Source: a virus. Taken from it: a DNA stretch of 63,841 nt. The position numbers were made by a program, and so were the translations under genes. The stretch's first letter is position 1. Each line of letters opens with the position of its first letter. The notes under the pieces are model-generated. The model was not told the DNA's origin. It saw only the letters and a program-made list of their open reading frames with translations, and made no database searches. Location: positions 1 through 63,841 of the IMG/VR virus record IMGVR_UViG_3300021168_000030. One strand, given 5' to 3'. Shown here in pieces: positions 7,518 to 28,900 of this stretch.

Positions 7518-7720
7518 TGTGCACTCCTCGCGTTCAGCCGCCGCACCCGATTGTACGAGTTGTATCTATTTCGGTTTCGGCGTCGCCACGCACGCATATA
7601 GAGGGCCTTCCGATTAGCTTCTCCCCGCACTTGTTGGTACTCACGGAGGAACTGGATAATAGCATCTGGGCCAGCACCCCAGCACTCAGTGTGATTTAAT
7701 ACCCACAGTCCCTTGCTCAT
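7514..7720 (-). CDS. small basic phage protein
   Basis: A 68-residue protein whose C-terminal third is rich in Arg and Asn and could bind nucleic acid. Its ATG overlaps the stop of the primase-helicase gene and its stop overlaps the next start (ATGA both times). Function is unknown. Confidence 0.5.
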   Translation of the reverse strand: MSKGLWVLNHTECWGAGPDAIIQFLREYQQVRGEANRKALYMRAWRRRNRNRYNSYNRVRRLNARSAQ

Positions 7721-10653
7721 ATCGGTTTACCTCCACTCAGTACGTTTAAGGGGCTGCCAGTGTTTGTTGTGGGATTACTATTGTCGTAGTTATAGTCTTC
7801 GAGATCAGGGTGGCTAGTCGGTATCTCGATGTAGTAAATCCGACCTGTTGTGTAGTGAGTGCCGGCGCCTAGCATGCCCCGTCCCTCTTTAGCGCCGTAG
7901 CGGGCCACTAGTTCGTTCTGATAGTCGCCCGAAGGTAAATTCCTATCGCGGCACCACGTCTGCCAGACGCTCTTGTCGATGCGCATCAACTTATCTTTCT
8001 GCGCAGTTTGAATAACAAGAGACTTTATGTTTGGATTTGGGAATGAGAGGACGCTAAATCTTGGATCAGGTTTTCCTTTACGTTGAAATATCGTAGTGAG
8101 CATACGCTCTCTCGTATGCTCCGTGTGAAATCTACCAAGAACGCGCTCAATATCCAGCTGGCCGTCATTGACGGGCAGGTCTCGCTTGCGCCTGTCGCGC
8201 GCCTGAGCAAGCGCTGCTTTTAAGTAGGCATCCATCGCGGGGATGTCGAAGCTCACAAGCTTTAACTTGTTCGCGATCCCCGCACCGGCTAGGATGCAGG
8301 TGATCCCGGCCATGTGAAACCGTTCCCCTGAAGAAGGATCGAGCTCCTCCTCTAGTTTCTTCCCGACCCTCGACACGACGCGTTGCGCCGTCTCGGCGTT
8401 GCTCGCCAGCCACTTAGCGTAGATGCGTCCGGCACTACCGTAGTTAGTCTCAGTCAGTTGGACCGTCTGCCCCGCGGCGATGCTAAGCGGCATCTGTGGG
8501 TGTGTGATCTGGAATTCGAACAGACGTAACGCGGCGGCGTCAGTCTCGGACCGCTCGGCAACGACGTGTTCCATTATCGCCGCATTGCTGGCCATCATCA
8601 TAATGGTTTTCCAATCCCTAGCTTCCCGTAACTTGATATCAGCAGTCATACGCGCCTTTTCCCGCCCTTGACCCATGTCAAAAAAGCCGCGGATACGTTT
8701 CTTTGCGTCGTCTTTGTCGAGCTGTACTTCATCCCAATAAGCCGGCATTATTTTAGTCTGTCCGACCTTATATAGTATCGCGTTGTCAGTATCCTTGAGC
8801 GACATCATGGAGTTCAACGGGTGGGAATAAACCGCCTGACCGACTCTGAACGCCGAGCTCTTCCCAACCGCGCTGTCGCGCGACCACGCCGATATGACCA
8901 CGCCTGACTGGCCGGTGAATTCGAGCAGCGGCGCAGCGAAGCTGACGGCAACGAGCACCTGCAAGTCGGGCCGGTTTTGCGTAACGAAGTCGCAGGCTTT
9001 ACGCCAGTCTTCCAACGTACCCCTCGGGCGATACCACTCGACTATCTGTGGGTCGCCGCCGGGCGCCGGCTCCTCGGTGCCGTCTGCCTTATAGAGCACG
9101 CCGCCGACCGCAAACCCGTCGTAGCCCCCATTCAAGTTCTTCGCCCATCCGAACGGGTAAGTTGCGATACTGCGAACAGCGCACATAGCGCGCAACTTGC
9201 TGATCCACGCCACGATGAAATCTCCGAAGTGCAAGGCGTTGTGTCTGTCGAGGGTGATGCCCTTAGGGCCAAAGTGCGCCATGATCCTGCCTGCCTCGGG
9301 CGATGGCGAGGCTGTCACAACGTCAAAGGTCTTCTTTTCAGGACCGAGATAGGTAAAGGTGATCTGATGGCCGGTCCCGGGGACCTCGTCGAGCACTGCC
9401 CGGTAGACATCGCCGGTGATCAGCCTAAGCCACTCAGCGTCGCCGGTTTTCTTATCCACGATCTCGCGCTGGATCTCGCCATTCTGGCGGCGGAAACCGC
9501 TAGGGAGTTCGTCGGTTCCCTCTGTCTCTTTCTCGACGCCTAGCGAGAAGGGAGAGCCGCCGATGCGCCCCCAAAACGGACAGCCCTGGCAAACCCCCGG
9601 CCGCATACTGTCGAACGTTTTACAGAGCGGCGCGCCGTTGCCCTTGCTCCGCTGCTCGTTGGCAGCACGTTGTAGCTCGGCGTCGGTCTCTGCTGGATCG
9701 TACGCGGGGTGCGCCTTACCGATCTCGTGGGCGTAATGCGCGCCATCACTACAGAAGCTAGCGAGAGTGATAAATCCGAGATACCAAAGCCGACGGTCAT
9801 CGTCGACGCCGTTGACTGCGAGCGACCGCTTGGCCTGCAGGCATTGGGTAGCAATCCGCTCGAAGGTGTGTTCGCGCCGAGATGAGACACCTGCCTGCGC
9901 AGCAGCGGTCAAGCTGCTCTTGCGCACCTTCGCCAGAGCCGGCGGCGTGCCAGCTAGCACATGTCGATCGAGCTGCTTGGTCGGCATATTGTCGATGGAG
10001 CGCTTCGATGCATAAGGACTAAGCGACCGCCATAGCTGGTTGTTGCCGTACTCACTACGGGAGTATTCGGTTAGCACGCGGACCGGCGCCGGCGATCCCG
10101 GGACCTTGCAGTTGAAAGTCCCTGGGAGACGCAATACCCGCGCGCTGTCGGTGGTCAGCCCTACGTCGCCCTTGGCGCCGTGATGGATCAGCGCTGCCTT
10201 GAGCGCCTCGGCATACGGTAGCCATTCATGGGGATCGAGAGGGTCTACGAAGACCCAATAGAGATGCAGGCCATAGCCGCTATTAACGATGAGGTTCGGC
10301 GGCAGTACCCCACTGTCAGTAAGCTTCTGAACGAATGCCAGCGCCTCGGCCTCGTCGGCGAAGGCTGTGCCGGGCCTCTTTTTGTCACCTGGGCGCGAGA
10401 TGTCAGCGTCAAACCAGAGACATTTGAACTGTTCGGCATTATCCTGCGTGCGCTGGCCGGCTTCGTGATACGACGCAACGGCGAACCATACATCGGCGCC
10501 TTTACGGGCTGCCCAACCGGCGTAGCCGACTGCAGAGCCTATATCGGCGCGCGGGAAAAATCTAGCGCTCATTCCCCTATCAGGGAACTTAAACGTAATG
10601 ACGAGGTAATTCCCCGGCGCGACAACGAGCGCTAAAAACTGTGCGGCGTCCAT
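7717..10653 (-). CDS. primase-helicase (AEP-like primase plus DUF927-like ATPase)
   Basis: A 978-residue replication protein. Residues 1-200 look like an archaeo-eukaryotic-type primase: Phe-Asp-Ala-Asp at 81-84 supplies the metal-binding acids, Ser-Gly-x-Gly-Leu-His at 125-130 the second motif, and an Arg-Leu-Pro-Gly-Thr motif follows. A Cys-rich patch lies near residue 360. Around residue 600 a Walker A (Gly-Lys-Ser) begins a DUF927-like helicase domain. It would unwind DNA and lay primers for the phage polymerase. GGGAG precedes the ATG. Confidence 0.8.
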   Translation of the reverse strand: MDAAQFLALVVAPGNYLVITFKFPDRGMSARFFPRADIGSAVGYAGWAARKGADVWFAVASYHEAGQRTQDNAEQFKCLWFDADISRPGDKKRPGTAFADEAEALAFVQKLTDSGVLPPNLIVNSGYGLHLYWVFVDPLDPHEWLPYAEALKAALIHHGAKGDVGLTTDSARVLRLPGTFNCKVPGSPAPVRVLTEYSRSEYGNNQLWRSLSPYASKRSIDNMPTKQLDRHVLAGTPPALAKVRKSSLTAAAQAGVSSRREHTFERIATQCLQAKRSLAVNGVDDDRRLWYLGFITLASFCSDGAHYAHEIGKAHPAYDPAETDAELQRAANEQRSKGNGAPLCKTFDSMRPGVCQGCPFWGRIGGSPFSLGVEKETEGTDELPSGFRRQNGEIQREIVDKKTGDAEWLRLITGDVYRAVLDEVPGTGHQITFTYLGPEKKTFDVVTASPSPEAGRIMAHFGPKGITLDRHNALHFGDFIVAWISKLRAMCAVRSIATYPFGWAKNLNGGYDGFAVGGVLYKADGTEEPAPGGDPQIVEWYRPRGTLEDWRKACDFVTQNRPDLQVLVAVSFAAPLLEFTGQSGVVISAWSRDSAVGKSSAFRVGQAVYSHPLNSMMSLKDTDNAILYKVGQTKIMPAYWDEVQLDKDDAKKRIRGFFDMGQGREKARMTADIKLREARDWKTIMMMASNAAIMEHVVAERSETDAAALRLFEFQITHPQMPLSIAAGQTVQLTETNYGSAGRIYAKWLASNAETAQRVVSRVGKKLEEELDPSSGERFHMAGITCILAGAGIANKLKLVSFDIPAMDAYLKAALAQARDRRKRDLPVNDGQLDIERVLGRFHTEHTRERMLTTIFQRKGKPDPRFSVLSFPNPNIKSLVIQTAQKDKLMRIDKSVWQTWCRDRNLPSGDYQNELVARYGAKEGRGMLGAGTHYTTGRIYYIEIPTSHPDLEDYNYDNSNPTTNTGSPLNVLSGGKPI
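8434..8444. promoter_or_regulatory. ACTACNGTAGT palindrome inside primase-helicase gene
   Basis: Exact copy with central C on the plus strand. On the coding strand it sits in a Thr-Asn-Tyr-Gly-Ser-Ala codon run; the same hexapeptide surrounds the copy at 61978. Confidence 0.5.
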
Positions 10654-12964: not shown

Positions 12965-13058
12965 ACCGATAGATCTTACGGCCTGCACATAGGCCCCACA
13001 TGCCCCCGGCACAGAAGCCGAGACCGAATATGAGGACGTATCCGACCACCTCCATCAT
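12954..13058 (-). CDS. 34-residue membrane miniprotein coupled to the sigma factor
   Basis: A micro-ORF whose ATG overlaps the sigma factor stop as ATGA. Residues 3-26 are a Gly-rich transmembrane helix with two Cys and a Trp, followed by a basic and Tyr-rich tail. ECF sigma genes are commonly followed by a membrane-bound anti-sigma gene; this one seems too short for the usual anti-sigma domain, so a role in sigma control is only a hypothesis. Confidence 0.45.
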   Translation of the reverse strand: MMEVVGYVLIFGLGFCAGGMWGLCAGRKIYRYDR

Positions 13059-13513
13059 GTAGTAAACTCATGCAACTTCGCCCGTGCGCGCCAGAGCCGT
13101 GAGCGCACCGTACCTATTGGAATGCGTTCGCGGCGTGCTGCCTCGGCATAGCTTGCGCCGCCTGTAATAAGCTCTATAAGGCGGCGCTGTGTTTGGGGCA
13201 GCCGTTCAATCTCCTCAACAACCTCATGTGCTAAAATGCTAGCATCAGCATTGCTATAAGATGGAGCATCGCTATCGAGCAGCACTGTAGCTCTACGAGT
13301 CGACCGCCTCGTATTGTTTACGTAGCAATTGTGCATGATCGTGAACATCCACGCGCGTAAGTCACCTTCGACGTAGAGGCGCTGTTTACATAGTACCATC
13401 AGTACCGTGTCTTGCACCAGATCATCGGCGTCGACAGTGCTTTCGGTGAGCTTCAGCGCGTAGCGGCGCAACCTCGGCAGCTCAATAATAATGCGCCCCT
13501 GGTCGATTGTCAT
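13055..13513 (-). CDS. ECF-type RNA polymerase sigma factor
   Basis: A 152-residue protein with the two domains of an ECF sigma-70 family member. Region 2 spans residues 10-72, including Asp-Asp-Leu-Val-Gln-Asp-Thr and the Leu-Arg-Ala-Trp-Met-Phe-Thr-Ile-Met-His-Asn stretch. Region 4 spans about 105-150 with a helix-turn-helix (Ala-Glu-Ala-Ala-x8-Gly-Thr-Val-Arg-Ser-Arg). The ATG at 13513 overlaps the upstream micro-ORF stop as ATGA; a GTG at 13591 is an alternative. It probably redirects host RNA polymerase to a class of phage promoters. Its target promoters are not evident. Confidence 0.85.
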   Translation of the reverse strand: MTIDQGRIIIELPRLRRYALKLTESTVDADDLVQDTVLMVLCKQRLYVEGDLRAWMFTIMHNCYVNNTRRSTRRATVLLDSDAPSYSNADASILAHEVVEEIERLPQTQRRLIELITGGASYAEAARRERIPIGTVRSRLWRARAKLHEFTT

Positions 13514-13623
13514 AGCCCCAGTCTCCGCCATAGTCTGCGTAAACGTTGTGCCAGCCGTTTGCGGCGCATTGCGTAAGGCCGGCGCCGCCACGCGTTTTGA
13601 TATTCACGGGTTATTGACTTCAT
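13510..13623 (-). CDS. 37-residue Arg-rich micro-ORF upstream of the sigma gene
   Basis: The ATG follows GGAGCGCGGAG closely and the stop overlaps the sigma start as ATGA. About 16 of 37 residues are Arg or Lys. It could be a small nucleic-acid- or polymerase-binding peptide, or simply a leader that couples sigma translation to the helicase gene. Confidence 0.4.
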   Translation of the reverse strand: MKSITREYQNAWRRRPYAMRRKRLAQRLRRLWRRLGL

Positions 13624-18136: not shown

Positions 18137-20061
18137 CACGAGTTCTCCTTCTTCTCAGCTGCCAATAGAGTCTTACCCCATCCCCCCTCTGACGCAAGGG
18201 GTAAGTCCGGCGCCCACGCCGGCCGTATTGCGAACTGCCGATCGAGCTCCTGATCCCACCACTCGACTTCTCTTTCAGGCACACAGTAGTCAAGGGAGTC
18301 GTGAGTAGATAGGAACGGATGGTAGCCTGTCAAGTCAAAAACACGCACGGCGATGTCAGTTACTACGATCCGTGAAAGAGCCTGCGAGATGTTCTCAATC
18401 GATTTCCCGCCATATATTTTGTAATACCCGCCGGTAGTTCGATTGTCGTATACTATAGCTGTAGTATTATCCGGCATACGCTCGAACCGTAAATTCGGAT
18501 ACATTAAACATAGGTAGTTCGGCAGCCACAGACAATCAAACCCAGGCTCGACCACTGGGAATGTGGACGCACGATAGGCGAGATAATCGATGTTCAACAG
18601 TTGGCGGACATTCTGAACACCCCGCGATACCACCAAGACATACTGAATTAGCTGCTCACCGCGGTGCCACAAGGTTCGGATCTCCGGGTACTCACTACGG
18701 TAGTGAGAAATGATCTCCACGGATTGCTCCAGGGTTACCTCGACACTGATCCCGCCGTTACCCAGGAACAACATATGCCGAAATTTCGGAGCGCCACAGC
18801 CATAGCCTAACCCCAGGATCCCTGTTTTGCCTACGAACCGCTCCTTGGTGTCGGCCTTGGTTATGGTTCGCTGGTATATAGTCGACGCAAACTCGGAATA
18901 GACATCGCGACCCTCGGCAAACGCCCTCAGAAGTTTCATGCACTGGGCTAGCCATGCGACCATGCGCGCCTCGATCTGTGAGGAGTCGCGGTGGACGATG
19001 CGATATCTCGGTGGCGCGGCGATGCCGGCGCGAATGGGCGACATCCTCGTGAAGTTCTGCCAGTTGGTCTTGTCGTCACCCGATAGCCTGTGCGTGCGCG
19101 CGCCAGAATACTTCAAGGGCACGGCGCCCCATCGCTCGCCATGTCCCCGCCAATCCAATAACGATAGGTCTAGTAGTTTCTGGGTGCGGGTTTCTTCGAG
19201 GGTGCTCTTTTGACTGGTACGCGCTGCTAGTATGGCCTGGACCTCGAGCGGCTGCTCAGGGTCCATGCATAGTTCCTTGAACTCGCGGTCGCCCTTGGCC
19301 AGCGCAAAGGTCTCCTTACCTGTAACGGGTGAGATCTTCAATGGCACGTCGACGCCGTAGCTCTCCAGCAAAGCAGCGAATTTCGGGTTGGACCGAAAGA
19401 CCTCCGGGTCGATAGCCGACACCCGGTCGAGGACCTCCTGCTTCCGGGCCCTGACTGCCCCCAGATGCACCGCCAGCGGCTCTGGGTCAAGTTTGACCTG
19501 GGGCAGTATGTGCATACGCGCCACGAGATCTATAAGGCGCAGCTCAGTAGGGCTAAAAATCTTTTTGAGTTTTAAGAATATACTATAGCAGTTCTCATTA
19601 TCGCGGTTGCAGTAGTCGGCGTATTCCCATAACTCAGGGTCAGTGAAATTTTCGAGCCGCTTACCGACGGCACGCACGACCGCGTCGCCTTTGTCTGGCA
19701 GCTCTAAGTATTTGGACACAGCGGCGAGCGACGATCTGCCGACAACAGCGTGCGTCGTCGCTCGCGCCATGCTCAGCGGGTCGAGGTATAACTCCGCGGC
19801 GATTCCGAAATGCCAGGCTAAAATGCTACCGTCGAACCTGACGTGATAGGCGCACAGTGCCAGCTTAGACCAGTCGTAGGAATTCAGTCTACGCCGCACG
19901 TTCTTATGACCAACTTCCACAGCTGATGGCTCGTCGTCGAGCTTGAACGAGCACATGATGACCTGGAACCGAGGGTCTAAGATATACTCGGCCGTGGTCA
20001 TCTTCTTGAGGCTGTAGTCTTTGTCGTAATAAGTTTCATAATCAATCGTTAGGATCGCCAT
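18136..20061 (-). CDS. family A DNA polymerase with 3'-5' exonuclease
   Basis: A 641-residue replicative polymerase without a 5' nuclease domain. The proofreading domain starts at once (Asp7 and Glu9 in Asp-Tyr-Glu-Thr) and its Exo III motif is Tyr-x3-Asp near residue 150. Polymerase motif A is Asp-Ser-Ser-Gln-Ile-Glu-Ala-Arg, motif B is Lys-x3-Leu-Gly-Leu-Gly-Tyr-Gly, and motif C is His-Asp-Ser in place of the usual His-Asp-Glu. GAGGG precedes the start, and the palindrome lies upstream of it. Confidence 0.92.
   Translation of the reverse strand: MAILTIDYETYYDKDYSLKKMTTAEYILDPRFQVIMCSFKLDDEPSAVEVGHKNVRRRLNSYDWSKLALCAYHVRFDGSILAWHFGIAAELYLDPLSMARATTHAVVGRSSLAAVSKYLELPDKGDAVVRAVGKRLENFTDPELWEYADYCNRDNENCYSIFLKLKKIFSPTELRLIDLVARMHILPQVKLDPEPLAVHLGAVRARKQEVLDRVSAIDPEVFRSNPKFAALLESYGVDVPLKISPVTGKETFALAKGDREFKELCMDPEQPLEVQAILAARTSQKSTLEETRTQKLLDLSLLDWRGHGERWGAVPLKYSGARTHRLSGDDKTNWQNFTRMSPIRAGIAAPPRYRIVHRDSSQIEARMVAWLAQCMKLLRAFAEGRDVYSEFASTIYQRTITKADTKERFVGKTGILGLGYGCGAPKFRHMLFLGNGGISVEVTLEQSVEIISHYRSEYPEIRTLWHRGEQLIQYVLVVSRGVQNVRQLLNIDYLAYRASTFPVVEPGFDCLWLPNYLCLMYPNLRFERMPDNTTAIVYDNRTTGGYYKIYGGKSIENISQALSRIVVTDIAVRVFDLTGYHPFLSTHDSLDYCVPEREVEWWDQELDRQFAIRPAWAPDLPLASEGGWGKTLLAAEKKENS
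18694..18704. promoter_or_regulatory. extended ACTACNGTAGT palindrome in polymerase gene
   Basis: Central G, extended to an 8-bp-arm palindrome CTCACTACGGTAGTGAG. On the coding strand it reads Ser-His-Tyr-Arg-Ser-Glu. Confidence 0.5.
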
Positions 20062-20076
20062 ATTACCCTCAAAACC

Positions 20077-20087
20077 ACTACAGTAGT
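20077..20087. promoter_or_regulatory. ACTACNGTAGT palindrome upstream of DNA polymerase
   Basis: Exact copy 15 bases upstream of the polymerase ATG, ahead of its GAGGG ribosome site, in the 50-base gap after the preceding gene. Confidence 0.7.
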
Positions 20088-20111
20088 AATTATATGGTAT
20101 GCTGTCTTATT

Positions 20112-20813
20112 TCACAACCCCGACCAAGAAGCGGTAATTTCGCGGGTAACCTTGGATGAGGGCTTAGGCAACATAACCGCGCTGGTGAGAACTATGTCGG
20201 CCAGCTTCATCGCCTTCCTATATTTAGCCAGCCATGTGTGGTCTGGGCCAGGAAGTTGCCACTGGTAGCGTTTGAGGTTTTTGGGTGGTGCGTTGAAACG
20301 CTCGGTCCAGATTTGATCTCCACTGATCAACAAGCTCAATGTCGGCCACTGCGCCAATACGTGAGCTACAGTGAGCGTCACGCCGCGGGTCAGGTAGCTT
20401 TTCACTACGTCATGGGTAACAGCAGCTATACGAAATTCCTGCGTTGCTTTGGTGCACCACTCGTTTAGCCTAATTCTCTTTAGAGGGGATAGGTGATCGA
20501 CGTAAAACATATGATTACCATTCGCGTCCCAGTTGCTATTGTACAGCTCTTTATTAAAATTAAGCTGAACATACGAAGTAGTATCCGGCATATTAATTTT
20601 GGCGTACCTAATTACGCGCAACATATGCTGCGATTTATTATTTACAATAGATTTCACAGCTCCGCGGACTTCCGGCGCGAGAAGCCCAGTCTGTACTTCA
20701 TCCAGTGTAAGCGGGAAATCATCGCACATGACGGCCGTGCGCCGTCCGGCTAGCTGTCGCGCGCGCTCCAGCATCGACGAGATTACGCGCGGAGTAATGG
20801 TGTAGTTCGGCAT
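20112..20813 (-). CDS. early protein of unknown function
   Basis: A 233-residue protein with a clear ribosome site (GGAG). It is mixed alpha/beta, with no motif I can name; the C-terminal third is basic and Trp-rich. It precedes the polymerase gene in the same operon, so a replication role is possible but unproven. Confidence 0.6.
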   Translation of the reverse strand: MPNYTITPRVISSMLERARQLAGRRTAVMCDDFPLTLDEVQTGLLAPEVRGAVKSIVNNKSQHMLRVIRYAKINMPDTTSYVQLNFNKELYNSNWDANGNHMFYVDHLSPLKRIRLNEWCTKATQEFRIAAVTHDVVKSYLTRGVTLTVAHVLAQWPTLSLLISGDQIWTERFNAPPKNLKRYQWQLPGPDHTWLAKYRKAMKLADIVLTSAVMLPKPSSKVTREITASWSGL

Positions 20814-21030: not shown

Positions 21031-22350
21031 CTATACCTTGATCCTCACGACGTCACCCCACGGTACCTCGTGCTCAGTGGTCGCGCACCAGATCACATGA
21101 TACCCCGGTTTCTCCACGGGGAACGAACCCAACAAGTCCGTCATGTACATCAGCATGTCCGGCTTAATGTCTTGCTCAGCTAACCATTCAAAGGGCGGCC
21201 GGAAGTCGGTCCCGCCGCCACCGACGCCGCCCTTGACGCGTATGGCTTCGAGCTCGTCGAACGAACTGGCTTCGTCGATGCGCTGGATCTTCGCGTCACA
21301 CCATATCAGGATCATGCGTCGCGGCCTGACATTCGCCAATATGCTACCGATCTCGGCGAAGAACGCAGATAGCTCCTTATCGCCAATGCTCCCCGAGCTA
21401 TCGATCGCACAGACCACTGTGCCAGCGCCATAGTCGGCACGGCCAGGAACTATAATGATAGGATTAAGCACTAAACGCCTCCTATTGGGCCTATTCCATG
21501 TCTCAGTCTTATTGCCAATGCGCCCCGTAATCAGCAATCTGAGCTGCTCACGCCATGACACTTGCGGTTCCAGGATCTCATCGACCATGCGCTGGAAGCT
21601 CGCCGGCATCTTGCCTATGGCCTTGGCGGCGGCCGCAGCGCGCGCAACAGCCTCGCGGTGCTCGCTCTCGCTAGGGAGATCCTCGCGGCCGGTCACCGTG
21701 TCGGTATACGGCTCCCGTAGTTCGTCAAACCTACCGCCATTGTTCGCGGCGTAATTATCTGGCTTACCAGGGACGCGCGAGCCCCGGGCCTGACCGTAAG
21801 TCGAATTACCTTGACCATGCTGACTCTGCTGACCATTACCACCCTGACCACCATTAGGCGGCGGCGGTACAAAATATTTCTCATAGAGATCCTCGACCAG
21901 ATCCTTGCCCGATACCTGGGGATCGTACAGCCACGCTGGATTGCACATCCCGATGTTGCTGGCTACTAAATCTGCGTTGATGATATAGTCCGCGCAGACG
22001 TTAAAGAGCTCCTGGTCCCAGTCGAGGTTTCTCAGCTTTCCTACACTACTGTAGTGCTTCATGCGGGATGGGTGCCTCTGGATCGCGTGGTAGACCTCGT
22101 GCGCCAGCACAAACACCCGCTCCGGGCCTTTTAGGGTCTGGAGGTAATCCGGGTTGTAGTATACGCGCCTACCATCGGTGGCCGCCGACGGAATCGCTGC
22201 AGTCGGATATTCCTCCATCTCGCTATAAAAATAATAGCAGAAGAATGGGCACGCGTTCATGAACCCAACGCGCGCGATCTCCATCATTTGTTTTTGATCA
22301 GGTGTTAGGGTTACCTTGAGGGGTAACCCACTATTCTGCATATTGCTCAT
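21031..22350 (-). CDS. VWA-like protein with metallopeptidase domain (DUF2201-like)
   Basis: A 439-residue protein. The N-terminal domain (1-150) has a zinc HExxH motif (His84, Glu85, His88), matching the putative metallopeptidase family PF13203. A Gly/Gln-rich linker follows. The C-terminal domain is VWA-like with an intact MIDAS: Asp-Ser-Ser-Gly-Ser near 313, a Gly-Thr-Asp loop and a later Thr-Asp. Such proteins pair with MoxR/CobS-like AAA ATPases as chaperone-like complexes; the ATPase lies at 24209-25444. The substrate is unknown. Confidence 0.85.
   Translation of the reverse strand: MSNMQNSGLPLKVTLTPDQKQMMEIARVGFMNACPFFCYYFYSEMEEYPTAAIPSAATDGRRVYYNPDYLQTLKGPERVFVLAHEVYHAIQRHPSRMKHYSSVGKLRNLDWDQELFNVCADYIINADLVASNIGMCNPAWLYDPQVSGKDLVEDLYEKYFVPPPPNGGQGGNGQQSQHGQGNSTYGQARGSRVPGKPDNYAANNGGRFDELREPYTDTVTGREDLPSESEHREAVARAAAAAKAIGKMPASFQRMVDEILEPQVSWREQLRLLITGRIGNKTETWNRPNRRRLVLNPIIIVPGRADYGAGTVVCAIDSSGSIGDKELSAFFAEIGSILANVRPRRMILIWCDAKIQRIDEASSFDELEAIRVKGGVGGGGTDFRPPFEWLAEQDIKPDMLMYMTDLLGSFPVEKPGYHVIWCATTEHEVPWGDVVRIKV
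22045..22055. promoter_or_regulatory. ACTACNGTAGT palindrome inside VWA gene
   Basis: Exact copy with central T, extended to CACTACTGTAGTG. On the coding strand it reads His-Tyr-Ser-Ser, just after the HExxH motif. Confidence 0.5.
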
Positions 22351-24033: not shown

Positions 24034-24212
24034 GGATATGGTTTCCTCCCAATATCTACATAGTAGGCTTTACCACGAAGCACTTGGTCTTCGGCCCAAG
24101 CGCGAGGCACTCTTGCGGTATCCCTTATAGCTGGATGAGTTGCTCTGTATTCGACTATATCGTTATTCTTATCAAATACCCGCTCAATTTTTACACCCTG
24201 CGTTTTCATCAT
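24030..24212 (-). CDS. 60-residue phage protein coupled to the AAA gene
   Basis: The ATG at 24212 overlaps the AAA ATPase stop as ATGA. The product is mixed beta and helix and basic. Function is unknown; the coupling suggests it accompanies the ATPase. Confidence 0.5.
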   Translation of the reverse strand: MMKTQGVKIERVFDKNNDIVEYRATHPAIRDTARVPRAWAEDQVLRGKAYYVDIGRKPYP

Positions 24213-25444
24213 TCCCGGCTCGCTACCAAAAGTTCCTTGTTCTTCATGAGCCATTGGACGTACGCAGGTTCAGAAACTATAAGTTTCGCACGGTTCTCGA
24301 CCGCAGATATGGCCGCCACTGATAACACCTGCATCTCGACCACCAGCCTATTGATATAGGCCATGATCTGCTGCGCGTTGGCTTCGGTTATGTTATGTGC
24401 CAGCATATACGCGCAGACCATCTGGGCGTCCTTTGCCTCGGGAAGTTTGGCCCTAGCCGGATCATTCTCGATGTCCGCTATGAGCGGGATTTCATCCGAG
24501 TATTTTAGATGCGTGAAGAACTGCGCACCCGCGCCGGGGCCGATCCACCCCGACGCAACCTCACGCGCGATCGGATCGAAGGGGAGCCTATCATGAGAGA
24601 TATCCTCTTCTGATCTGAGCGCGCTCAGGTCTTTATCGAGCAGACATAGCGTTCTGGGCGTGCAGAACGGATCGGTGCCCTCGGGCACGCTCTCCCGGAA
24701 CACGATGCCCGGGTGCTGCTGCGCGAATGAGATGGTCAGATAGTGCGGTGGAATGGTCTGTTTATTGGCCCATTCTAACCAAGCTGGCAGTGAGGCATCG
24801 ATCGACAGCCTACATCTCCGGTTCACCAAAAACATGAGTTCGCGTAGGACACCCGACCGATCACTCATACGGTTTTGAGCGGCGATCACACGCCAGCCTA
24901 CTGGTAGCTCAGTCGTGCCGACCGCGCCCTTGTATAGCAGCTCAGCGGCAGCTTTCTTCACGTCGTCCTCGGCCTGCCCGAACTCATCGAGGAAGAGGAT
25001 ACCGACATCAGGAACCTCACCATCCCATGTGCTAGGACCCCTCGCTACGCCTTCTATGAAAGGAGGCTGCTCCTGCCACGGCTTCCCGGTGGCTGTTCGC
25101 AGCTCACCAGGCTTATGCCAAATACCGTTGGGCTCGACCACATGCGTATTTGACTTAGCAGGATACCACGGCGGGGTACTGAATATCGTATCGAGCGAGC
25201 TGGCGCCCTTGACCGGCAGCATAAATCCCCGCACGTCGACCGACGATATGGTCGCCAGCATGAACTGCACGAGGCCGACGGGCTTGTTGACGCTGCGCGC
25301 CAACTTCGCAGCGGTCTGGAACACGGTATCCGATTTACCGATGCCGGGCCCGCTTTCCAATAGGAGGGCATTGGCGCGGGTGTTGTGCTGGAGTGATGCG
25401 AGCTGCGTGCGCAGGATGACTTCGCTAGCTGATTTCAGATCCAT
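24209..25444 (-). CDS. MoxR/CobS-like AAA+ ATPase
   Basis: A 411-residue AAA+ protein. Walker A is Gly-Pro-Gly-Ile-Gly-Lys-Ser at 32-38, Walker B is Leu-Phe-Leu-Asp-Glu ending at 154, sensor 1 is the Asn in Ala-Ala-Gln-Asn, and an Arg-rich stretch follows that could hold the arginine finger. It resembles MoxR/CobS ATPases, which act with VWA proteins to remodel or insert metal into targets. The VWA-metallopeptidase and a DUF3150-like gene lie downstream in the same operon. Confidence 0.85.
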   Translation of the reverse strand: MDLKSASEVILRTQLASLQHNTRANALLLESGPGIGKSDTVFQTAAKLARSVNKPVGLVQFMLATISSVDVRGFMLPVKGASSLDTIFSTPPWYPAKSNTHVVEPNGIWHKPGELRTATGKPWQEQPPFIEGVARGPSTWDGEVPDVGILFLDEFGQAEDDVKKAAAELLYKGAVGTTELPVGWRVIAAQNRMSDRSGVLRELMFLVNRRCRLSIDASLPAWLEWANKQTIPPHYLTISFAQQHPGIVFRESVPEGTDPFCTPRTLCLLDKDLSALRSEEDISHDRLPFDPIAREVASGWIGPGAGAQFFTHLKYSDEIPLIADIENDPARAKLPEAKDAQMVCAYMLAHNITEANAQQIMAYINRLVVEMQVLSVAAISAVENRAKLIVSEPAYVQWLMKNKELLVASRE

Positions 25445-26792: not shown

Positions 26793-27050
26793 TTAGATCT
26801 CGTGATTACCCGACGGAAACCCAGGTCTCTGCAGGGCGCAGTGAAACGCGCTGGCACCGAATTGGTGAAACATCGCCAGTGATTTCACGGCGAATAGGTA
26901 ATCGACCTGCGCGGTGCTCAGGGCCTCACCGTATAATTCGCCCATTCGCGCATTCATGCGGTCGGACTGAGACGCCGCCGCGACGGTCGATCGAGCGAGA
27001 TCATATGGCATTACGCTGTAGGGTATGGGAACGCTTGGTGATTGGTTCAT
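26793..27050 (-). CDS. phage protein of unknown function
   Basis: An 85-residue, largely helical protein coupled to the ribbon-helix-helix gene by ATGA. It may act with that regulator, but no motif supports a role. Confidence 0.5.
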   Translation of the reverse strand: MNQSPSVPIPYSVMPYDLARSTVAAASQSDRMNARMGELYGEALSTAQVDYLFAVKSLAMFHQFGASAFHCALQRPGFPSGNHEI

Positions 27051-27403
27051 GCCTGCAACTCCCCATTGAGTTCATCGCGCTTGTCAAAGAAAGCGTTGTA
27101 TTGAGCTTTCGACCAGTCCGCTTTGGGGGCAGACCAATCGAAATGTGGAGCAAACTGCTGCATTTCGTCCGTGGTCGGTATGCGCACCTCTAGCCTAATG
27201 GGCTCAGAGCTATTTTCTACTATAGTAGTAGGTTTAGATGGCTGCAACTCTGAGTTGAGTTCAGAGTACCCCCTACCATCGAGATAGTTCGCGATCCAGC
27301 CACGCAGTACCTCAGTCATAGCGCGGCCGGTTCGCTGCGCCTCGACCCGCAGCATACGATAGGCGTCATAAGGCATCGTGAATTTGAAAACTTGGTTTCG
27401 CAT
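27047..27403 (-). CDS. ribbon-helix-helix DNA-binding protein
   Basis: A 118-residue protein. Residues 1-45 fit an Arc/CopG-type ribbon-helix-helix: a short beta strand with alternating residues (Gln-Val-Phe-Lys-Phe-Thr-Met), helix 1, a Gly turn and helix 2. Such proteins bind inverted repeats as dimers or tetramers. A linker containing a palindrome variant (Thr-Thr-Ile-Val-Glu) leads to an acidic, Trp-rich C-terminal half. It lies beside the repeat-rich non-coding block and is the best candidate in the window for binding the ACTACNGTAGT sites; that link is inference. Confidence 0.65.
   Translation of the reverse strand: MRNQVFKFTMPYDAYRMLRVEAQRTGRAMTEVLRGWIANYLDGRGYSELNSELQPSKPTTIVENSSEPIRLEVRIPTTDEMQQFAPHFDWSAPKADWSKAQYNAFFDKRDELNGELQA
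27219..27229. promoter_or_regulatory. palindrome variant ACTATAGTAGT inside RHH gene
   Basis: One mismatch to the consensus; the surrounding CTACTATAGTAG at 27217-27228 is itself a perfect 12-bp palindrome. Confidence 0.45.
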
Positions 27404-27465
27404 TGTAGCTTGAACCGCTGTAAGAGGGTGTTCCTATAAATATAGCTACGATGGTTTTTAGTCAA

Positions 27466-27640
27466 GGGTCAGTTTGGGGTATCTTTGGGGTATGTTTGGG
27501 CCGATGGGCCAATCTGGGCCAAGGGTCAGTTTGGGGTATGTTTGGGGCTGATTGGGGTCAGATTAGGGTCAGTTTGGTCCTTAGGTCAGTTTGGTCCTTA
27601 GGTCAGTTTGGGGTCGGTTTAGGGTATCTTTGGGCCGAGA
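27466..27640 (+). repeat. G/T-rich iteron-like repeats with G-quadruplex potential
   Basis: Copies of GGTCAGTTTGG and TATSTTTGGG recur. A 17-base unit, GGTCAGTTTGGTCCTTA, is repeated at 27567-27583 and 27584-27600, with a partial third. G-runs at 27476-27508 and 27523-27557 meet the G3 with loops of 1-7 rule for G-quadruplexes. It lies upstream of the RHH gene and may be a replication origin or control region. Confidence 0.7.
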
Positions 27641-27698
27641 CTATGCAATTTATTGGCTTTTTCCGTGTAGTTATATGATCGTTACAGTTGAAAATGTG

Positions 27699-27966
27699 TT
27701 TCATTCCCAAATTCACTCCGGGAATGAAAAACTTGTAAGTCATTGATATTGCTATTTGTTCCTTTATTCCCAAAACTTTTACCCTAGAGACGCGTAGACG
27801 CCACGACGCCAATGCGTGAAAATCAAAAACTCTTACGTATCTCTTATTTTTTATTGGGAATGAAAGGAATGAAAGGAATGAAAGAAAAAAGCTAGGATTT
27901 CTGCGGCTTTCGTCGATTGTTTCGCGCCCGTTTCGTTCCCAAACGGTGTTTTTGTCGGGAATGGAA
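27699..27966. repeat. inverted GGGAATGAAA repeats in AT-rich non-coding block
   Basis: TTTCATTCCC at 27699-27708 faces GGGAATGAAA at 27720-27729. The motif recurs in part as TTTATTCCC at 27763-27771, as GGGAATGAAA with two further GGAATGAAA copies at 27856-27883, and as TTTCGTTCCC at 27931-27940 facing GGGAATGGAA at 27957-27966. No credible gene lies between 27404 and 28084, so this is a regulatory or origin region. Confidence 0.65.
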
Positions 27967-28033
27967 CCCTTAATCGCCGCAGAAAGCCTAGGTTTTGTAT
28001 CCTCAAATTAGTGTAAAGAACCGTGAATATGAG

Positions 28034-28063
28034 AAACCCTGCAGGATATTCCCCGCAGGGTTT
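28034..28063 (-). terminator. hairpin after the first early gene
   Basis: A perfect 9-bp stem, AAACCCTGC with GCAGGGTTT, and a 12-base loop, just past the stop of the 28085-28900 gene. No long T-tract follows on the minus strand, so it may terminate weakly or protect the mRNA end. Confidence 0.5.
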
Positions 28064-28084
28064 AATCTCCGCTCGATAGACCAG

Positions 28085-28900
28085 TTATGCCGCTTCGATA
28101 TCCCGCAATGCTTCGTCTAGAAGATCACTTACGCCCATAGCAGGGGTTATTTCCTCTATTGCGTCGATAGTTTCAGGCGCCGATGGGCTCTTTCGTACAC
28201 TAGTTTGTTTGACAACTGACTTAGGCTGCTCGTTCTTAAAATCCCCTATCGTGAGTGTACTAAGCTCTTCGCAGCACGCACGCAGCTGCTCGATATGCGG
28301 GAATTCGTCCGACATGGCTCTGATTTGCGCTAGGAGGGCCGTACGGCGCTTGAACGCCTTGGAGGGGTCTTTCGCCGGGTCGAGCGAAATAGCCCACTCA
28401 GCGACCTCCGCAGGGGTTTCTAGGGGACGTTTGGTATCGATGCACTGGCTGATCATCCGTTGGAGCATATGGTAGCGCCTAGCGAACGCGGTGCGCAGCG
28501 GTCTTGGCGCGGATTTATCCTCGGTCGCGAGTTCCGCATCCCACACGTTTTGCGCGAGTTCCTGCATCGAAGACACATAATTGCATGCATTAGGGTGGCA
28601 AGCGCGCTTGATTTCACCGGCGAATGTATTTATTGCAGTGTCTTTGCCGTTGCGCGTTTTGAGCGCGGCGTCAACACCGCTCTCGATATCGATCAGCTCC
28701 CAGCGTTCCCTGGCACTGATATTTGCCAGTGTCACAAGCTGGCCTTCACGTGTATTGACTGCGTCGTCAGCCGCTACAGTCAGAACGTCTTTCGCGTCGC
28801 GACGATCTTGGTCCTTTGTGGAGACTGCTGCGAAGCTGGCAGTGACCACATCCGATACGCGCGAGACGCGTGATACGTGATTTGTGGTATTGGCTGTCAT
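28085..28900 (-). CDS. first leftward early protein, unknown function
   Basis: A 271-residue soluble protein, mostly helical, with several Cys, a basic linker near residue 225 and an acidic C-terminus. It is set apart from the rest of the early arm by a hairpin and the repeat block, and heads the leftward arm. No family is recognised; a host-takeover or single-gene early role is possible. Confidence 0.55.
   Translation of the reverse strand: MTANTTNHVSRVSRVSDVVTASFAAVSTKDQDRRDAKDVLTVAADDAVNTREGQLVTLANISARERWELIDIESGVDAALKTRNGKDTAINTFAGEIKRACHPNACNYVSSMQELAQNVWDAELATEDKSAPRPLRTAFARRYHMLQRMISQCIDTKRPLETPAEVAEWAISLDPAKDPSKAFKRRTALLAQIRAMSDEFPHIEQLRACCEELSTLTIGDFKNEQPKSVVKQTSVRKSPSAPETIDAIEEITPAMGVSDLLDEALRDIEAA

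Follow-up and report, generated by a model that had tools for sequence, protein, structure and literature searches.

A likely IHF-assisted, PICI-like replication origin joined to a candidate operator array in an uncultured bacterial virus

In published PICI origins an AT-rich region lies between two sets of iterons, and the primase of these elements may be fused to Rep (PMC6092414). According to the outline in PMC4234260, the alpha protein of phage P4, whose primase is of the Toprim type, binds origin repeats and then unwinds and primes the DNA, and pRN1 combines the repressor orf56 and the PrimPol-helicase orf904 with an origin formed by a 100-nt stem-loop. IHF is reported to be needed at the pSC101 and R6K origins (PMC5043065). 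Here we describe a gene-free region of an uncultured bacterial virus that shares elements with each of these systems. We consider it likely that the virus starts replication here, at an IHF-assisted origin of PICI-like design, and that an array of operators for the early operon adjoins this origin.

The virus is represented by an IMG/VR record of 63,841 bases, classed as linear and maybe a fragment, which was analysed over its whole length (the window). An ORF check found no credible open reading frame in the 681 bases from 27404 to 28084, between the start of the gene at 27047-27403 (minus strand) and the stop of the gene at 28085-28900 (minus strand). An earlier sequence-only reading had proposed a gene-free block here, and this is its full extent. 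The features considered below are as follows.

7717..10653, minus strand: 978-aa primase-helicase with profile and fold matches (DUF927), the putative initiator
27047..27403, minus strand: opening gene of the leftward operon, whose 118-aa product may be a ribbon-helix-helix (RHH) DNA-binding protein
27439-27465, minus strand: possible early promoter TTGACT-N15-TATATT at the array edge, weak and picked out by eye
27466-27632, plus strand: array of 13 G-rich 11-bp units GGGTCAGTTTG, with 0-3 mismatches
27699-27708, minus strand, and 27720-27729, plus strand: iteron set 1, an inverted GGGAATGAAA pair
27736-27748, minus strand: predicted IHF-type box TATCAATGACTTA, an exact match to WATCAANNNNTTR
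27763-27771, minus strand: degenerate iteron copy TTTATTCCC, read directly and part of a repeat family found in the gap
27856-27883, plus strand: iteron set 2, three tandem GGAATGAAA with 9-bp spacing
27887-27996: 110-nt extended stem-loop with 21-nt arms (27887-27907/27976-27996)
28034-28063: terminator-like hairpin closing the FAM gene, an inverted repeat with 12-nt arms and a 6-nt loop
28085..28900, minus strand: FAM, a 271-aa protein predicted to be all-helical, whose gene is located 5' of the gap in the leftward direction

Read leftward, the order is the hairpin at 28034-28063, the stem-loop, the three tandem GGAATGAAA, the degenerate copy, the IHF consensus, the inverted GGGAATGAAA pair and the 11-bp array. 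The repetitiveness of the region is far from random. It holds 110 repeated 9-mer pairs, compared to a maximum of 14 in dinucleotide shuffles (n=100), and it is the top 700-bp window of the 63.8-kb record for non-simple repeats. At no more than one mismatch, GGGAATGAAA occurs ten times in the whole window (shuffle mean 3.1; none of 100 shuffles reaches ten), and seven of the ten copies, in both orientations, fall within 27699-27966, bearing out the inverted repeat copies noticed in the sequence-only reading. The extended stem-loop has a fold z of -5.3 (0 of 200 shuffles fold equally well), and its loop contains two inverted iteron copies, at 27931-27940 (minus strand) and 27957-27966 (plus strand). 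The hairpin said to close the block is likewise present as an inverted repeat; it was not among the results of a simple terminator scan. The 11-bp units all lie on the plus strand, with starts from 27466 to 27622 and a spacing of about 11 or 17-18. The 17-base tandem repeats reported earlier are also present (27567-27611; 2.6 copies, 100%) and consist of 11-bp units plus a 6-bp spacer within this larger array. A DNA search of the region in named phages and plasmids gave no match, and a near-identical relative of the region was found neither by DNA search nor by a 19-base iteron pattern.

Relatives were found through an ATPase encoded 2-3 kb from the region, which yielded 7 and then 80 loci. 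An ATPase and metallopeptidase-VWA gene pair, at 21031-22350 and 24209-25444 in the window, is conserved in the early operon of 15 long records. Iterated HMM searches identified 26 ORFs homologous to FAM, its own included, and the 22 that could be aligned share 18-26% identity with the FAM of the window. FAM could not be matched to a known protein, having no outstanding sequence match and no fold match in PDB or BFVD at E<=0.001. Almost every one of the 26 loci has, behind FAM, a non-coding AT-rich gap of about 0.5-1.1 kb, with a GC content mostly of 0.43-0.51 versus 0.56-0.63; one locus (L005) has no gap, only 32 nt. In Rhizobium phage RHph_TM27A, the closest named phage, which has been cultured, the equivalent position is taken up by an unannotated gap, at 19356-20124 of its record. 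Two loci with 100% TerL identity (L137 and L144) have sequences that, judging by length, end short of the region. A strong hairpin stands at the gap start in many relatives too. A long stem-loop is not a constant feature, being found in the window and some relatives.

The repeats of these gaps differ in their letters, and every phage has its own iteron. A non-simple 9-mer family exceeding all 12 shuffles was detected in 28 of 36 gaps, where about three would be expected by chance, and no significant repeat family was found in the other eight. In 19 of the 28 gaps, copies of the family flank the AT-richest 50 nt on either side, versus 9.5 expected (P 0.0001), an expectation drawn from random windows that removes gap-edge effects only in part. 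In the window itself, inspection places iteron sets on either side of the AT-rich stretch. A lack of repeat conservation, named as a refutation in the sequence-only reading, is thus seen for the letters of the repeats but not for their presence, placement and arrangement. In only 4 of 15 records does the gap rank first among the repeat windows. In one relative (G010), a near-identical tandem duplication of ~150-170 bp, at offsets 510-810 from the FAM stop, doubles the iterons and covers half of the origin-like region. GC skew, which had been suggested as a check, gave a mixed answer. In 7 of 15 records the skew minimum falls no more than 6 kb from the gap (P 0.015), but skew is absent or elsewhere in six, and in two (G012 and G013) the sign switch near the gap is opposite to that of the window; gene direction confounds skew throughout.

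The IHF-type box had gone unmentioned in the sequence-only reading and was newly found here. We used the consensus WATCAANNNNTTR as it is given in PMC4585315. An exact match occurs in 12 of 22 non-redundant gaps of a discovery set, compared to 0.8 expected from shuffles. This set was built from the 26 FAM loci by excluding L005 for its 32-nt gap, adding G007, G010 and L097, and dropping six near-duplicates; L097, a Rhizobium phage, gave no match to FAM, and its place was assigned from synteny only. Because the idea of the box arose from some of the discovery gaps (those of the window, L008 and G010), held-out loci were tested, and these provide the only independent test. They were fetched with TerL and scored with the published consensus. 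From 42 new loci with FAM, 10 belonging to discovery records and 3 with gaps below 300 nt were removed, and similarity to a gap already kept or in the discovery set eliminated 15 of the remaining 29, which left 14. Nine of these 14 gaps contain the exact consensus (0.42 expected), at a match density 28-fold that of the remainder of the same loci, and the reversed pattern, run as a control, was found in none of the 14. With one mismatch allowed, 28 of 36 gaps contain an extended box, WATCAAYRRSTTA, compared to 0.8 expected, although its extra letters were partly learned from the same sites. Around 38 boxes, AT content is 70% in the 20 nt on the 5' side and 48% in the 20 nt on the 3' side; such an asymmetric AT flank is a known property of IHF sites. 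Each of three gaps (L025, L196 and L204) has two IHF-like boxes 65-66 bp apart. Iterons showed no preference for flanking the box (5 of 21, with 5.7 expected). The box is mostly lacking among 22 loci of more distant ATPase relatives, one of which (L073) has three copies. Overall, these data suggest that 27736-27748 is a candidate IHF site at which IHF would bind. The presence of IHF in the host is itself an assumption.

We also considered which protein might act on these repeats. The 978-aa primase-helicase has a homolog encoded in all 15 long records. Its profile matches include SCCmec Cch (E 1.6e-17) and SaPIbov1 Rep (E 3e-16), together with a weak match to AEP primases. The predicted model (mean pLDDT 77) resembles SCCmec Cch (Foldseek E 3e-18; Z 27.2, 484 aligned, rmsd 9.9) and SaPIbov1 Rep (Foldseek E 2e-15; Z 24.1, 457 aligned, rmsd 11.8), and its AEP domain resembles the S-2L PrimPol domain (Z 18.9, 173 aligned, rmsd 2.4). 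Judged by these profiles and the predicted fold, the helicase part of the protein is of the Rep/Cch initiator type. Comparison of the whole model gave no fold match specific to residues 830-960. The gene lies ~17-20 kb from the gap rather than adjacent to it. An origin 3' of the primase-helicase gene was also considered and set aside: the 1 kb 3' of the gene shows no excess of repeats or iterons in the 15 records (rep9 2-20), and the IHF matches present there in G010 and G017 belong with integrases. In RHph_TM27A the homolog is encoded at MN988461 42569-45286. In four Rhizobium phages the homolog is annotated as 'putative integrase protein', which looks like a misannotation.

The proposal that the region is an origin candidate gains support from this comparison, since relatives have in the same place an AT-rich gap, mostly with an iteron family and an IHF box, and encode an initiator-type primase-helicase. 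This support is partial, and its grounds are other than those first given. The repeats and their non-randomness, the conservation of position, the box with its held-out replication and the initiator-type fold were computed directly; from these sequences we infer that replication may start here.

The closest likeness is to the PICI/SaPI origin: in both, short iterons particular to each element form two sets about an AT-rich stretch, and the initiator helicase is of the SaPIbov1 Rep/SCCmec Cch (DUF927) type. There are also clear differences. These are free-living tailed phages of ~60 kb with a fused AEP primase; the origin candidate has an IHF-type box that is conserved, and an array of putative operators and the helical protein FAM stand next to it. 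Moreover, the PICI origin lies just 3' of rep, whereas here FAM precedes the gap and the initiator is ~17-20 kb off. Because the region is not 3' of the rep gene, we liken it to a PICI origin and do not class it as one. Phage P4 also has a fused primase-helicase, but its alpha primase is described as Toprim-type, in contrast to the AEP primase found here. P4 has a second iteron locus, crr. The combination of iterons, an AT-rich region and IHF is shared with pSC101 and R6K gamma as described; however, most iterons of those plasmids are direct repeats that work together with DnaA, and a DnaA-like box was found in only 1 of 28 gaps scanned. With pRN1, in the account cited above, the region shares an AEP primase-helicase, a transcriptional repressor gene and a ~100-nt stem-loop beside a terminator. 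In contrast to the present group, in which the long stem-loop is not constant, pRN1 is without iterons and has its stem-loop on the 3' side of the replication gene. The orf56 repressor of pRN1 is an RHH protein.

The main rival explanation is that the region contains no origin and serves only to regulate the early operon, through a terminator, a promoter aided by IHF and operators for a repressor. It holds this position because the G-rich array and the possible RHH gene, a weak assignment, both fit it. The leftward replication operon begins immediately downstream of the region, and the array extends to the operon start, adjoining the first gene on its upstream side. The 118-aa product of that gene has a weak PHROG match to Arc-like repressors (E=0.0088), and no Pfam match backs the RHH assignment. 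The first early genes of relatives often encode small putative DNA-binding proteins, RHH-like or Cro-like by weak scores. IHF activates promoters as well. A consensus promoter scan, which needed a spacer of 16-18, found none. The 27466..27632 array may be an operator array of the early operon. To this extent the 'master switch' suggested by the sequence-only reading holds up, with a G-rich array just upstream of the first leftward gene, although the RHH match remains weak. The window also encodes an ECF-type sigma factor (13055-13591), for which neither the records of 14 relatives nor the part of RHph_TM27A that was searched gave a counterpart. Regulation alone fits other observations less well. 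In many relatives the box is 107-280 nt from the FAM stop and hundreds of bases from the first early gene (for example L008, with the box at 147 of 1113, L159 and L195), which is far for direct promoter activation. Two repeat sets about an AT-rich core are an origin-like arrangement, and no other iteron-bearing AT-rich site was seen beside the initiator gene. We therefore regard a purely regulatory role as unlikely, if the most serious of the alternatives.

A partition centromere of a phage-plasmid, with an RHH ParB on tandem sites, is considerably harder to sustain. Its model is pSM19035 parS, where an RHH ParB is described on contiguous heptads (PMC9499535), and in the window an RHH-like gene does adjoin a tandem same-strand array. 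However, a ParA-type ATPase (PF13614) has no match in 15 of 16 records, the window included, the DNA search gave no plasmid match, and by inspection the relatives do not share the array. We consider a partition site very improbable. The sole relative with a ParA-type ATPase match has it at G009:C1:56020-56406, in an ORF of 221 aa.

An attP of a temperate phage, combining IHF sites with arm-type integrase repeats, is less credible still. An attP typically contains IHF sites and inverted repeats, and a tyrosine integrase scores above the Pfam cut-off in 4 of 16 records, with a weak match in a fifth. However, the window and RHph_TM27A have no integrase (PF00589) or resolvase (PF00239) match. In the five records with an integrase match, some 20-28 kb separate the match from the gap, and four of the five have another exact IHF site within about 1.5 kb of the match, which would locate the attP there and not at the gap. 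On these grounds we rejected attP. The IHF consensus beside integrase genes far from the gap in G010, G011, G015 and G017 likely marks their attP. A TerL scan for integrated prophages in GTDB genomes gave 122 pattern matches, none of them confirmed.

The G-quadruplexes proposed by the sequence-only reading do exist as motifs, since both stretches (27476-27508 and 27523-27557) fit the G3+N1-7 rule when read directly and a greedy scan assigns the region two of the six canonical motifs of the whole window (27466-27500 and 27506-27536; 0.04 expected in shuffles of 681 bp), but they arise because the array is made of runs of G-rich 11-bp units, and with any canonical motif in only 4 of 36 gaps (window and relatives) we rejected them as a conserved feature and give a functional role scarcely any credence.

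We return, then, to an IHF-assisted, PICI-like origin, for which the following sequence of events can be proposed. The C-terminal part of the primase-helicase would bind the two iteron sets, at 27699-27729 and 27856-27966. Host IHF would bend the DNA at 27736-27748 and aid opening of the AT-rich stretch between the sets. The helicase could then load itself at the opened stretch, where the AEP domain would prime. The RHH-like 118-aa protein may bind the 11-bp array and so control the leftward replication operon. More tentatively, a lineage of uncultured ~60-kb tailed phages may initiate replication in the PICI/P4 style from one IHF-marked origin, in which the iterons are rewritten in each phage and the box and layout stay fixed. 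Our survey of literature on phage origins with iterons and IHF returned no report for this group; subscription papers were thinly covered, and novelty is unproven.

The origins of most uncultured phages are not known, and GC skew often fails to locate them, as it does in this group. An IHF box conserved within a syntenic AT-rich gap offers a sequence handle for finding origins across a phage group. It also allows a direct test of whether the Rep/Cch-type initiators of satellites, cassettes and larger phages share an origin design. One primase-helicase family facing many iteron sequences constitutes a natural data set for a DNA-recognition code. If the proposal is correct, origin specificity, set by an initiator and iterons that lie far apart in the genome, diverges quickly, and it may decide which phages share or parasitise each other's replication.
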